DNA of 36,588 nucleotides from an uncultured Methylococcaceae bacterium (GTDB taxonomy: Bacteria > Pseudomonadota > Gammaproteobacteria > Methylococcales > Methylomonadaceae). Both the position numbers and the translations under genes were made by a program. The notes beneath the pieces were generated by a model. The model saw nothing but the letters and a program-made list of their open reading frames with translations. It had not been told where the DNA came from and did not search any database. Location of the stretch: contig CAIPDT010000011.1 of NCBI GenBank assembly GCA_903863905.1, forward strand, positions 1 through 36,588, read 5' to 3'. Numbering within the stretch: the first letter of the stretch is position 1; each line of letters starts with the position of its first letter. Below, piece by piece: positions 25,044 to 29,631 of the stretch.

Positions 25044-26654
25044 TTAAACACCTCGATAACCGGAAGTGATGGGGTAGCGCCTATCACGCCCAAACGCCCG
25101 ACTGGTAATACGAATCCCCGGCGGTGATTGCCGACGCTTATATTCATTTCTATCCACCAAACTAATCGCCCTCACCACCTCTTCACGCTTAAAACCGGCG
25201 GCGATAATGTCTCCTGCCGATTGATCCAATTCAACATAACGTTCTAAAATAGGATCTAAATTTTCATAGGGCGGTAAGGAATCTGCATCGACTTGATCAG
25301 GTGCCAATTCAGCAGAAGGCGGTCGGGTAATGACTCGTTCTGGAATGACTTCAGCTAAACTATTTCGATACCGCGCTAAAGCATACACCAATAACTTGGG
25401 CACATCTTTAATCGGCGCAAAACCACCCGCCATATCGCCATATAAGGTGGCATAACCCACACTCATTTCACTTTTATTGCCGGTGGTTAATAAAAGTTTG
25501 CCTTTCTTATTCGACATCGCCATTAAAATAACGCCACGACAACGCGCTTGGATATTTTCTTCAGTCGTATCCTTCGTCGTACCGGCAAAGACTTCAGCTA
25601 ACATGCCCGTAAAAGCCTGAACCGCTGGCGCAATCGGTATGACATGATACTGAACCCCTAAGGCGTCTGCCTCTAATACCGCATCTTCATTACTCATATC
25701 TTGGGTATATTGAGACGGCATTAACACCACCTCCACTTTATCCGCCCCGAGAGCATCCACCGCTAAAGCCAACACTAGGGCCGAATCAATCCCCCCCGAT
25801 AAACCTAATAAAGCGCCCTGAAAACCATTTTTACGCACATAATCTTTAATACCTAGCACCAAGGCCTGATAGTCACTCGAAATCGGCTGATAATGTGGCG
25901 CACAGGTGGTTAATAGGGGATTAGTCCCATCATATTCAACCACACTAATTTGTTCTTTAAATTCTGCCGCCCGAAACACAACCTCCCCGTGCGAATTAAG
26001 CACAAACGAAGCCCCATCAAAAATGAGTTCATCTTGCCCGCCCACTTGATTCACATAAACCAGCGGTAACGCAGCGGCTTTAACTTGGTCACCAATAATG
26101 GTTTCACGTTGATGAATTTTTTCAGCATTAAACGGCGAAGCATTCAGCGTTAACATTAACTCTGCCCCAGATTGCTTATAGGTTTCAATAATGCCGGGGC
26201 GCCACACATCTTCACAAATGCTTAAACCCATAAACACCCCGTTAAATTCAAAGACACACGGTTTATGACCGGCGGTAAAATAACGTTGCTCATCAAAGAC
26301 GCCATAATTAGGTAAAGCCTGTTTGCGATAGCACGCCAAGACCACCCCTTGATATAACACCACCGCGCTATTGTAAAGTACGCCCTCCGCTTGTTCAGGA
26401 AAGCCGATAACCATCGCAATACCCTCAACACGCTCGGCGACTTCATAAACCGCATTATTAGCAGTCTCAATAAAGTCAGCTCTCAATAATAAATCTTCAG
26501 CCGGATAACCGGTTATCGTTAATTCAGGAAAAACCACAATATCTGCGTGTAACTGATCACGCGCATACTCGGCGGCCGCGATAATATTATCAACATTAGC
26601 GGCTATATGACCCACCACAAAATTAATTTGCGCCAGTGCAACTTTTAATGACAT
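25044..26654 (-). CDS. nadE: NAD(+) synthase, glutamine-hydrolysing
   Basis: Amidates nicotinic acid adenine dinucleotide to NAD, drawing ammonia from glutamine. The 536-residue protein joins an N-terminal nitrilase-type glutaminase with its triad E44 (VVFPELT), K111 (CYRKQALPN) and C147 (LSICEDVW) to a C-terminal synthetase with the ATP-pyrophosphatase loop GLSGGIDSALVLAL near 284, TTGNKSEMSVGYATLYGDMA near 400 and RPPSAELAPDQVD near 450. It thus differs from the short ammonia-dependent NadE of E. coli. It is transcribed divergently from the B12-type regulator and is first in a nadE-SemiSWEET-fbp series. Confidence 0.95.
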   Translation of the reverse strand: MSLKVALAQINFVVGHIAANVDNIIAAAEYARDQLHADIVVFPELTITGYPAEDLLLRADFIETANNAVYEVAERVEGIAMVIGFPEQAEGVLYNSAVVLYQGVVLACYRKQALPNYGVFDEQRYFTAGHKPCVFEFNGVFMGLSICEDVWRPGIIETYKQSGAELMLTLNASPFNAEKIHQRETIIGDQVKAAALPLVYVNQVGGQDELIFDGASFVLNSHGEVVFRAAEFKEQISVVEYDGTNPLLTTCAPHYQPISSDYQALVLGIKDYVRKNGFQGALLGLSGGIDSALVLALAVDALGADKVEVVLMPSQYTQDMSNEDAVLEADALGVQYHVIPIAPAVQAFTGMLAEVFAGTTKDTTEENIQARCRGVILMAMSNKKGKLLLTTGNKSEMSVGYATLYGDMAGGFAPIKDVPKLLVYALARYRNSLAEVIPERVITRPPSAELAPDQVDADSLPPYENLDPILERYVELDQSAGDIIAAGFKREEVVRAISLVDRNEYKRRQSPPGIRITSRAFGRDRRYPITSGYRGV

Positions 26655-26742: not shown

Positions 26743-26776
26743 TTCTACGTCAAATTTTTGTCAATGTTTTGTAAAG
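26743..26776 (-). promoter_or_regulatory. Three 11-bp direct repeats, probable operator of the CarH/LitR-like regulator
   Basis: Read on the minus strand, TTTACAAAACA (26765-26775), TTGACAAAAAT (26754-26764) and TTGACGTAGAA (26743-26753) follow each other without gap, an exact 11-base period. Two fit the nTnnACAn element known for CarH operators (CTTTACAA, ATTGACAA) and the third differs by one base (TTTGACGT). The array ends 8 bases before the putative -10 of the adjacent MerR-type gene and so covers its -35 region, the position from which CarH-type proteins repress. Confidence 0.65.
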
Positions 26777-26781
26777 GTTTG

Positions 26782-26790
26782 TGATAGTAT
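26782..26790 (+). promoter_or_regulatory. Extended -10 promoter of the CarH/LitR-like gene
   Basis: TGATAGTAT is an extended -10 (TG, one base, TAGTAT at 26785-26790), 32 bases before the ATG at 26823. No good -35 is present at the usual spacing; that zone is occupied by the 11-bp repeats. Confidence 0.55.
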
Positions 26791-26822
26791 AAGCCTTTTC
26801 AATTTGATGCAAAGAAGCAACT

Positions 26823-27848
26823 ATGACTGTAATTAATGATGACTCAGCGCAATATTTAATTAGAACAGTATCAAAAAGATCCGGTGTTAAATCTGATCTC
26901 GTTAGAGCTTGGGAGCGGCGCTACCAAGCAGTAACGCCAACGCGCACATCCGGTGGTCATCGCGTTTATACGGACCAAGATATTGCGCGCTTAAAACTTC
27001 TTAATGAAGCGACTAGCCACGGCCATAGTATCAGCCAAATTGCGCAACTGTCTTTAGATGACCTTAAAAGCTTATTAAAAACAGAAACCAACGCCCCCGC
27101 TCTTTCTTCTTCAAGTAACAACACGCACGCTGTTGCCCAAATTAGAGATAAGAAGTATCTTGCTGACGAATATACCGATAAATGCTACGCCTCTGTACTG
27201 GCCTTTGATGCTCAGGAACTTGAATCTCATTTTGAAAATGCCATTGTAGAATTGGGCGCCGAAGCCTTTATAGAGTTTCTATTAACACCGTTACTCACCA
27301 AAATTGGAGAACGTTGGAAAACAGGCGAACTTAGACCTGTTCATGAACACATGACCTCTTCCGTCATTCGTTCCTTAACCTATATCTTACGCAACAACAA
27401 TCCTTGCGCCCCTAATGCACCTAGAATGATTGTCAGCACGCCCATTGGACAACTACACGAATTAGGCGCCTTACTGGCCGCTATTATGGCCGAACTGTAT
27501 GGCTGGCAAGTCACTTATTTAGGTGCTAATCTCCCAGCGGAAGAAATTGCTGCTGCCGTTAAATATACCAAAGCCTGCGCACTGACATTAAGCATCAGCT
27601 TTGCCACCGAAGATCATATTGTCGCTAAAGAATTACGCCGCTTAAAAAAGCTCATTGGTAATAACGTCAGCCTGATTGTCGGCGGACGTGCCGCAGGACA
27701 TTTTAATGCCGTATTAACGGAAGTGGGTGTTATCAACATACAAAGCTACGCCCATTTTAAAACGCTCCTTAAACAATTGATGATAGAGTATCAAACCCAA
27801 AATACGCCGTCTGAACTCAATACCCCTAATTCAACACGACCTAACTGA
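26823..27848 (+). CDS. MerR-family regulator with cobalamin-binding domain, CarH/LitR-like light-responsive repressor
   Basis: A 341-residue regulator. Residues 11-80 are a MerR-type winged helix (LIRTVSKRSGVKSDLVRAWE, SGGHRVYTDQDIARL). A Ser/Asn linker near 88-105 leads to a four-helix cap with the adenosylcobalamin signature Wx9EH (W165, E175, H176). The Rossmann B12-binding domain follows with H212 in GQLHELGAL as candidate lower axial ligand. These residues match those that let CarH hold AdoCbl, tetramerise on DNA in the dark and release DNA on illumination; E. coli MlrA/BluF relatives lack them. Three 11-bp repeats precede the gene, implying autorepression. ycgN follows after 13 bases. 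Light response is inferred, and targets outside this locus are unknown. Confidence 0.85.
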   Translation: MTVINDDSAQYLIRTVSKRSGVKSDLVRAWERRYQAVTPTRTSGGHRVYTDQDIARLKLLNEATSHGHSISQIAQLSLDDLKSLLKTETNAPALSSSSNNTHAVAQIRDKKYLADEYTDKCYASVLAFDAQELESHFENAIVELGAEAFIEFLLTPLLTKIGERWKTGELRPVHEHMTSSVIRSLTYILRNNNPCAPNAPRMIVSTPIGQLHELGALLAAIMAELYGWQVTYLGANLPAEEIAAAVKYTKACALTLSISFATEDHIVAKELRRLKKLIGNNVSLIVGGRAAGHFNAVLTEVGVINIQSYAHFKTLLKQLMIEYQTQNTPSELNTPNSTRPN

Positions 27849-27861
27849 TTAATCTGACACT

Positions 27862-28290
27862 ATGCGCTTTTGGGAAACAAAAAAATTAACAGAAATGAAC
27901 CCCGAAGAATGGGAGTCATTATGTGATGGCTGCGGAAAATGTTGCCTGCATAAATTAGAAAATGATAAAACAGGCAAAATAGCCTTTACCAATGTTGCGT
28001 GTAAACTGCTTAAACTTAATACCTGTCGCTGCTCTCGCTATGACGACCGCACCACCTTAATAGCCAACTGCTTAGATTTAAAAAAACTCGAAACTACCCA
28101 ATACCATTGGCTTCCGTCTACCTGCGCCTACCGTTTACTCGAAGCTAACCAACCCTTACCTGGTTGGCATCCTTTAATATCGGGAAATACTGCCAGCGTA
28201 AAACGTGCAGGGGTTTCAATCAGTAGCTATGCAATAACAGAAAAAGACGCTAGAAACCTCGAAGACCATATTATCCCAGGCTTAAACTAA
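27862..28290 (+). CDS. ycgN: YcgN-family cysteine-cluster protein (UPF0260)
   Basis: A 142-residue protein matching the YcgN/UPF0260 family along its whole length: MRFWETKKLTEMNPEEWESL, the cluster CDGCGKCCLHKLE near 22, FTNVACKLLKLNTCRCSRY near 46, and STCAYRLLEANQPLPGWHPL near 93. The conserved cysteines suggest binding of zinc or iron, as in the related YkgJ family, but no activity is established. It is 13 bases after the CarH/LitR-like gene and is probably co-transcribed with it. The convergent small exported-protein gene ends 7 bases away. Confidence 0.9.
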   Translation: MRFWETKKLTEMNPEEWESLCDGCGKCCLHKLENDKTGKIAFTNVACKLLKLNTCRCSRYDDRTTLIANCLDLKKLETTQYHWLPSTCAYRLLEANQPLPGWHPLISGNTASVKRAGVSISSYAITEKDARNLEDHIIPGLN

Positions 28291-28297
28291 ACGAATA

Positions 28298-28765
28298 TTA
28301 AGGTTTGACATTAATAACAATCCCCGCCCCATCGACGGTTTTCTTTCTTTCTGCTTCAGGCTCGGGCGACATCAAAAAGTTACCCTTTAATTCTAAACCT
28401 TGAGGAGACCTTCTCTTCTTAGGATCAAAAATATCATTCGAATTACCTAAATCAGACTCTGATTGCCTCTTATTAAAATCTAAGGGATCGTCACTTAAAA
28501 AAGGTACTGATAAATCTAAAGGCTTACCTAAGACACTGGGATCAATTAACCCAATGGACGCTTCAGGCTCAATGACCGGGAGTTTTCTTTTTTTAAGTCG
28601 TTTTTTAACCACGACTGAAGGCACTTGAATCTGAGTTAAATCAGATGGCGAGCTTACTTGCTGAACAGAGTCGGCCACAACACCCGCATTAGAATTCTTT
28701 AACCCACCTAAAAAAAGCCATAAAACCCCTAGAAAACCACATAAAAATATACGATAAACTATCAT
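28298..28765 (-). CDS. Small exported or membrane-anchored protein of unknown function
   Basis: A 155-residue protein I cannot assign. The first 25 residues are a hydrophobic signal or anchor (MIVYRIFLCGFLGVLWLFLG). The rest is low-complexity and hydrophilic: a basic patch VVVKKRLKKRKLP near 51, Pro/Asp/Leu-rich linkers (DPSVLGKPLDLSVPFLSDDP) and a C-terminus ending GIVINVKP. No catalytic motif, cysteine pair or repeat is apparent. The hydrophobic segment is followed by Asn/Ala/Gly residues where a signal peptidase could cut. It lies between the DUF5765-like gene and ycgN. Expression is uncertain because no strong ribosome site is seen. Confidence 0.6.
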   Translation of the reverse strand: MIVYRIFLCGFLGVLWLFLGGLKNSNAGVVADSVQQVSSPSDLTQIQVPSVVVKKRLKKRKLPVIEPEASIGLIDPSVLGKPLDLSVPFLSDDPLDFNKRQSESDLGNSNDIFDPKKRRSPQGLELKGNFLMSPEPEAERKKTVDGAGIVINVKP

Positions 28766-28878: not shown

Positions 28879-29631
28879 TTAAAGCGAATCGCCTACTTCT
28901 GTTTTATAAAAAGGCCAGCTTTTAACATGTAAATACTTTCTAATCGGTGTTTTAATAACCGACACACACAACGCAATTGAGAATAAACACCAAACCGCCG
29001 CGTATTCATTGGGATCAGTGGTCGTTAAATCAGAAATAAAAGGTCCAATTAAATAATGGAAACCCACAAAACGCCAAGAACCGTACATCAACGGCATATA
29101 AAATGCCACCACGATATAGGTAAAGGCATGTAAGCCCCAATTAAAGCCAAACAACCATTTAACCGGATCAGACATTAAACCATTTAAAGGCATTTGCCAC
29201 GCAATATGCCATGCTCCCGAGGTTGAACAAACACTCGGTCCGCAGAAACCTTCTACCCCAATATTACAGGTTCCAGCCCAAGCGAATGGATACATTTTAA
29301 TTAACATGGTAATCGTACCAATCGCACAAATCGTATAAACCGTGGTCCGGATTTTTAATTTAACGCTATTAGGAATAAAGTACATTGCCACCATATTGAC
29401 AAAAAATGGTTGAAAAGCCACATGTAAATAGCCAAGCATCGTCAAAATTTGATTATTTGGATTATCACATAAATCAATATAAACGTAAGTCGCTGCCTGC
29501 AACAACTCCATTAAAGCAAAATAAGTTAATGGAATCCAAAGTTCTTTAGACTCCCCCTTGAGCGCAACATACGTTGCCGTACTTAGACCTGCGATGGCTA
29601 AAACACCTGACGCTTCACCGCTCCAACACAT
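28879..29631 (-). CDS. DUF5765-like polytopic membrane protein
   Basis: A 250-residue integral membrane protein with about seven hydrophobic helices, starting MCWSGEASGVLAIAGLSTAT and resembling, from memory, the DUF5765 family found in some gammaproteobacteria including methanotrophs. Several cysteines (C2, then DLCDNP, AGTCNIGV, EGFCGPSVC) lie at helix ends or in a loop, which might bind metal or form disulfides. A Trp/His-rich stretch SGAWHIAWQMPLN follows that loop. A perfect AGGAGGT stands 9 bases before the ATG, implying strong translation. Function is unknown. It is a single gene between two stem-loop-bounded intergenic stretches. Confidence 0.75.
   Translation of the reverse strand: MCWSGEASGVLAIAGLSTATYVALKGESKELWIPLTYFALMELLQAATYVYIDLCDNPNNQILTMLGYLHVAFQPFFVNMVAMYFIPNSVKLKIRTTVYTICAIGTITMLIKMYPFAWAGTCNIGVEGFCGPSVCSTSGAWHIAWQMPLNGLMSDPVKWLFGFNWGLHAFTYIVVAFYMPLMYGSWRFVGFHYLIGPFISDLTTTDPNEYAAVWCLFSIALCVSVIKTPIRKYLHVKSWPFYKTEVGDSL

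Follow-up and report, generated by a model that had tools for sequence, protein, structure and literature searches.

A putative B12-dependent LitR/CarH-type repressor with a conserved 11-bp repeat operator in gammaproteobacterial methanotrophs and its possible link to an RpoD-like sigma factor

The window analysed here, a stretch of 36,588 nucleotides from an uncultured Methylococcaceae bacterium (GenBank assembly GCA_903863905.1, contig CAIPDT010000011.1), very probably encodes an autorepressor of the class I LitR/CarH type, judging from the sequences of the protein and of its promoter. The gene, called litR below, occupies positions 26823-27848 of the forward strand and encodes 341 amino acids. 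The explanation that we favour as a whole is that LitR, in addition to repressing itself, probably gates the promoters of an RpoD-like sigma factor gene and of a divergent yfcH/membrane-protein gene pair, and we consider this reasonably probable. The protein and its operator belong to a known class, and the new part is the proposed link from LitR to the RpoD-like sigma factor. Stated for the gammaproteobacterial methanotrophs, the reading is a two-tier B12-dependent light response, in which LitR would repress itself together with a dedicated RpoD-like sigma factor and the promoter of yfcH and the membrane protein, until light frees the sigma factor to reprogramme the cell; we see this wider reading as evenly poised between right and wrong.

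Results

An earlier note, made from the letters of the window, had read the gene as CarH/LitR-like, and its domains, residues, fold and conservation in different genera now support this identity well. The MerR_1 (PF13411), B12-binding_2 (PF02607) and B12-binding (PF02310) domains all score above their Pfam cut-offs, the last with 44.5 bits against 32.1. The protein thus has the N-terminal MerR domain and both B12-binding domains of class I, and the presence of PF02310 sets it apart from class II LitR, which is without the second, Rossmann, B12 domain. Its score for the NCBIfam CarH equivalog NF052513 is 118 bits, far under the cut-off of 400 bits, and we therefore name it class I LitR/CarH-type and not a CarH equivalog. 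The closest solved structures by sequence are those of CarH/LitR of Thermus thermophilus (3whp, E 1.1e-26; 5c8d, E 1.4e-26). A Foldseek search with a structure model of the protein (pLDDT 81.8) placed full-length TtCarH at ranks 1-12, with 5c8f at the top (E 6.7e-16, about 25% identity in the structural alignment). The predicted model has the TtCarH fold, with an rmsd of 3.2 A to 8c31 for the B12 part alone; the full-length rmsd values are large (11.7-20.7) because of the placement of the domains.

The signature of adenosylcobalamin (AdoCbl) binding, W-x9-E-H plus an axial histidine, is complete in the protein sequence, and all the residues that the earlier note had named (W165, E175, H176 and H212) were located. 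All four motifs that are given in an excerpt of PMC11796333 for light-responsive B12 domains (GxxW, EH, GxxH and GxxxP) are also present. The window and 68 further loci, gathered by a scan with two exact peptides that is not a census, formed a comparison set of 69, in which 67 sequences could be assessed for the signature and two are cut off ahead of it. Of the 67, all have E175 and H176, 64 have W165, 66 have H212, 60 have G209 and 62 have P238. The genome of the window (G000) encodes a corrinoid adenosyltransferase family protein (PF02572). We infer from these features that the protein binds AdoCbl and responds to light.

The host is a methanotroph of the Methylobacter type. The named carriers of litR include Methylobacter psychrophilus, Methylovulum psychrotolerans, Methylovulum miyakonense, Methyloglobulus morosus, Methylocucumis oryzae and Ca. 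Methylobacter favarea, and the two-peptide scan also found the gene in many Methylococcales MAGs. In a separate search, 32 of 61 genomes had litR at E<1e-100, all of them from the genus of the window or G035; because most relatives among the 61 genomes come from one genus, such genome counts are not independent events.

Upstream of litR, three 11-bp units stand at 26748-26775 of the forward strand: CGTCAA (26748-26753, with one change), TGTCAA (26759-26764) and TGTAAA (26770-26775). Read on the complementary strand, CTTTACAA and ATTGACAA fit nTnnACAn exactly and TTTGACGT with one change, so that the repeats and coordinates described in the earlier note hold. A probable extended -10 element, recognized by eye and conserved in the alignment, follows at 26782-26790 (TG at 26782-26783, TAGTAT at 26785-26790), and relatives have a conserved TGATAGTAT-like stretch 3' of the repeats that, again by eye, resembles such an element. 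The consensus promoter scan, which requires a -35 box, did not list it. With the extended -10 in this position, the repeats fall over the -35 region. Within the window the pair pattern occurred three times against 1.82 expected, and the triplet allowing one mismatch once against 0.39 expected; these counts are near expectation, so the single sequence alone is not significant.

The relatives decide the matter. Two in-phase units were present in 62 of the 69 litR promoters, which were aligned on the pair. As each row was aligned on its best pair match, the fixed letters of the pair are not independent evidence, but the unscored columns and the register of the third unit are: +3 C, +8 T and +10 T are invariant across the 62 promoters, and a third unit, xGTxxA, stands at exactly -11 in 37 of them, whereas every register between -33 and -12 has it in 0-5 of the 62. 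Among the seven dropped rows, L043, L074, L076, L083 and L098 have in-phase units by eye, L090 is degraded and L054 has only 18 bases upstream. A search of the 68 further loci (2.05 million bases, both strands counted) gave 58 occurrences of the strict core TGT..A.GT.TTGT..A; 51 of these lie at most 140 bases upstream of litR, one at -166 (L043), three belong to the paired sites taken up later (L073, L085 and L097) and three are others. The repeats, near chance in the window, are clearly real across the relatives, and the tandem 11-bp operator of class I LitR/CarH is recognized by sequence and conservation.

The divergent neighbour nadE (NAD+ synthase, 25044-26654, reverse strand) was considered as a target of the operator and rejected, as the gap varies and nadE has its own promoter-like site at 26732-26705.

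Three loci of the comparison set, L054, L070 and L071, have arginine at the signature tryptophan, and L070 has in addition tyrosine at the position of H212. The operator pair is retained in L070 and L071. According to their sequences, these proteins could be natural B12-independent variants.

The earlier note had proposed a genome scan for targets with 11-bp phasing, and such a scan led to sites outside the window. A profile built from the litR operator (R1) was searched over 26 genomes, and a second, built from the sites at the sigma and yfcH genes (R2), was run on 15; given these origins, the scores of R1 at litR and of R2 at the sigma and yfcH sites are not independent evidence. R1 ranked the litR promoter first in all 18 searched genomes with a litR match. 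Of 18 stretches around its weaker matches, eight lie at the promoter of an RpoD-like sigma factor gene and three at the yfcH/membrane-protein promoter; the other seven do not recur and were set aside, five of them within genes (L147, L153, L159, L160 and L162) and two at other genes (L163 and L164). R2 found two strong sites in each of nine genomes and one in G035, and no strong site in G036, G045, G038, G060 and G042 (in G045 none at E<=5). In the genome of the window the next match after the two strong sites had an E value of 0.3.

The sigma factor has about 465 amino acids, and in the genome of the window (G000:C142) it exceeds the cut-offs of Sigma70 regions 2, 3 and 4 and stays under the equivalog cut-offs of RpoD (218.3 against 555), RpoS (181 against 378.7) and RpoH (110.2 against 323.1). 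An exact pair precedes it in 27 of 30 loci, the exceptions being one stretch of 103 bases, G010 and G027. Its N-terminus was matched in 94 of 237 genomes of the family, and upstream stretches from 36 of the 94 (G018, G020 and G035 included) showed an exact pair followed by TTGAC in 27, spanning 12 genera. There was no exact pair at the sigma relatives of the genera g22 (6 of 6) and g15 (2 of 2) and in G117. The litR gene and the sigma pair appear to occur together in the same genome in Methylovulum miyakonense (G189), G198 and G069.

Paired repeats were also present between the yfcH-like gene and the divergent gene of a 145-aa membrane protein. The pair stands before yfcH, on the strand facing the membrane-protein gene, in 25 of 30 loci; it was not found within 450 bases in G034, G021, G027, G010 and G040, but in G034 a pair lies farther away. 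L073 and L085 have the membrane-protein gene, with the paired site in front of it, at a distance of about 4 kb from litR. The 145-aa protein itself (L148, 3230-3667), divergent from yfcH and behind the conserved paired site, has no Pfam or NCBIfam match.

Binding of LitR to the sigma and yfcH sites is, in our view, the weakest step of the reading. The consensus of these sites, TTGTWCATGTTTTGTNNAACTATAnTTTGACAA, differs from the litR operator in that there is no third unit upstream and TTGACA follows, and so another protein could bind them. LitR would then control only its own operon, and a different regulator with a similar 11-bp-phased repeat would serve the sigma and yfcH/membrane-protein promoters. 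The eight sigma relatives of g22 and g15 without a site agree with such a division, as does the sigma pair that persists in G021, where litR is gone from its locus. However, both kinds of site share the TGTnnA units, the 11-bp phase and letters of the spacer, and in G021 the yfcH pair was not found within 450 bases. A second LitR-size MerR paralogue as the binder was rejected for the genome of the window, since the other two places found by the MerR_1 search are frames of 119 and 214 aa. The apparent absence of litR in G010, G013 and G024 does not help the two-regulator case either, because G010 and G013 are without nadE too and in G024 no more than the last half of nadE was found, and we read these absences as assembly gaps. 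For this reason we withdrew both a joint loss of litR and ycgN in these three genomes and the argument against LitR that G013 and G024 had seemed to offer by keeping the sigma and yfcH sites.

A further point against a separate regulator comes from another family of the order (G045), where a LitR-like gene, its product with W-x9-EH, and an RpoD-like sigma gene are transcribed divergently. The product of the former has MerR_1 and B12-binding_2, not PF02310; the sigma factor is 40% identical over regions 2-4, and a pair plus TTTGACA lies between the two genes. A further pair stands before a run of amine oxidase, DUF1365 and CMAS genes, and the pairs of G045 were found by pattern only, not by R2. 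Looser links come from four genomes with a MerR gene close by: in G042 and G053 it is near yfcH, in G055 and G058 near a distant homolog of the membrane protein (25-27% identity). These MerR genes are without W-x9-EH, and we label them LitR-like only by their DNA-binding part and their neighbours. Weighing this evidence, we hold it rather unlikely that LitR controls only its own operon, and we lean slightly towards LitR also gating the RpoD-like sigma factor gene.

In G042, a cluster (L251, 1343-7172) contains, by eye, genes for a lipocalin, a photolyase, MerR, RudS, yfcH and ferrochelatase, with RudS and MerR confirmed by Pfam. Photolyase as a direct target was rejected, as there was no exact pair at eight loci in six genomes.

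The ycgN gene (27862-28290, forward strand, 142 aa) begins 13 bases (27849-27861) behind litR, as the earlier note had stated, and its product scores 191.3 bits for the YcgN family NF003507 (cut-off 170 bits). It is probably co-transcribed with litR. The earlier note had asked whether the two are neighbours in related genomes and had suggested YcgN as a light- or B12-controlled partner; one may go further and take ycgN as the main target, with YcgN a dedicated light- or B12-response protein. The neighbourhood is frequent: ycgN adjoins litR in 44 of the 64 assessable loci (five of the 69 end too soon) and in 27 of 30 loci from the 61-genome search, which overlap that set, and the two frames overlap by four bases in some loci. 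In G021 (L113, 2950-3800), nadE and the litR operator are followed by ycgN without litR between them, the operator standing directly before ycgN, and no litR match was found elsewhere in this genome (79% complete). However, ycgN is not adjacent in the other 20 of the 64 loci; the 9-9.5 kb around the displaced ycgN of G031, G035 and G001, which have litR, contained no exact repeat pair; G036 has ycgN and nadE with no litR match; and the papers listed for YcgN gave no function for it. The neighbour counts and the displaced genes without a pair indicate that many species have ycgN on the litR promoter, although the partnership is not a fixed one. The suggestion that YcgN is a light- or B12-controlled partner is weak and only partly supported, and ycgN as the main target seems to us quite improbable.

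litR also has other neighbours. In L092 (8975-14847), it stands divergent to a BLUF-PsiE gene and has CobS-type, aminotransferase and CobQ-type genes behind it, so that a single locus combines B12 synthesis with two kinds of light input. RudS and an epimerase gene neighbour litR in L070 and L073, and in L073 a photolyase gene, by eye, is also near; RudS genes are reported in light-responsive operons in a portion of PMC11417400. That LitR senses AdoCbl as a metabolite and acts as a repressor responding to B12 status is very improbable: cobalamin genes do follow litR in L092 and a light response is not visible in sequence, but the light-responsive B12-domain signature is complete in the protein of the window, and relatives of the gene or of the site adjoin RudS, BLUF or photolyase genes.

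Discussion

We suggest the following course of events for LitR as an autorepressor that also gates the sigma factor. In the dark, AdoCbl-bound LitR would sit on the 11-bp repeats over the -35 region and block RNA polymerase at litR, with the repression extending, in this genome, to ycgN behind it. In the light, photolysis of AdoCbl would release LitR and the operon would be transcribed. LitR probably also represses the sigma and yfcH/membrane-protein promoters through the pairs upstream of the TTGAC -35-like box, and the RpoD-like sigma factor freed by light may then read further genes as a second tier.

The nearest known systems are the AdoCbl-based class I CarH/LitR of Thermus thermophilus and CarH of Bacillus megaterium, with which the protein of the window shares the domain order, W-x9-EH, the axial histidine and the fold. 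Their operators are of the kind outlined in a section of PMC9304148, that is, tandem 11-bp nnnnTnnACAn repeats that overlap promoter elements near -35 and tolerate degenerate units. The differences are that litR of the window is followed by ycgN and not by carotenoid genes, and that identity in the structural alignment is only about 25%. The CarH and CarA proteins of Myxococcus xanthus and other myxobacteria also act on full and degenerate 11-bp units mixed, as the same section describes. Unlike the system in the window, they control a carotenoid operon, and CarA is B12-independent. In the window TnnACA is on the strand opposite to litR transcription, whereas in the Myxococcus promoter the -35 TTGACA lies inside a sense-strand repeat (PMC9304148, same section).

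A light-sensing LitR upstream of a sigma factor is described for Streptomyces coelicolor in an extract of PMC12705666. There, however, the sigma factor LitS belongs to the ECF group and LitR is said to promote litS transcription, whereas the candidate of the methanotrophs is RpoD-like and its control would be by repression. The class II LitR proteins of Pseudomonas (PplR/PmlR2), as presented in part of PMC9758184, are likewise MerR-type regulators that repress light-inducible genes, with half sites of the TGTACA type, but they have the helix-bundle B12 domain only and use TGTACA-N12-TGTACA, in contrast to the two B12 domains and 11-bp phasing found here.

Among the open-licence papers listed by our searches, no title or start of an abstract describes a link from LitR/CarH to a sigma factor in methanotrophs. 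If our reading is true, these microbes would have a LitR-sigma cascade whose sigma factor is RpoD-like and not of the ECF type, and the two-tier response might be relevant to the light inhibition of methanotrophy reported for lakes, which is discussed in a passage of PMC12211021. The regulon that we predict is small. With its readable operator and its candidate sigma target, the putative B12 light sensor may offer a genetic handle on the light response of methanotrophs.

Two further genes lie beyond ycgN in the window, both on the reverse strand. A 155-aa reading frame at 28301-28765 has no Pfam or NCBIfam match and is beside ycgN in most loci of the 61-genome search, with about 31-56% identity. 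The DUF5765 protein at 28882-29631 is 90-94% identical in the relatives matched, far above its neighbours.
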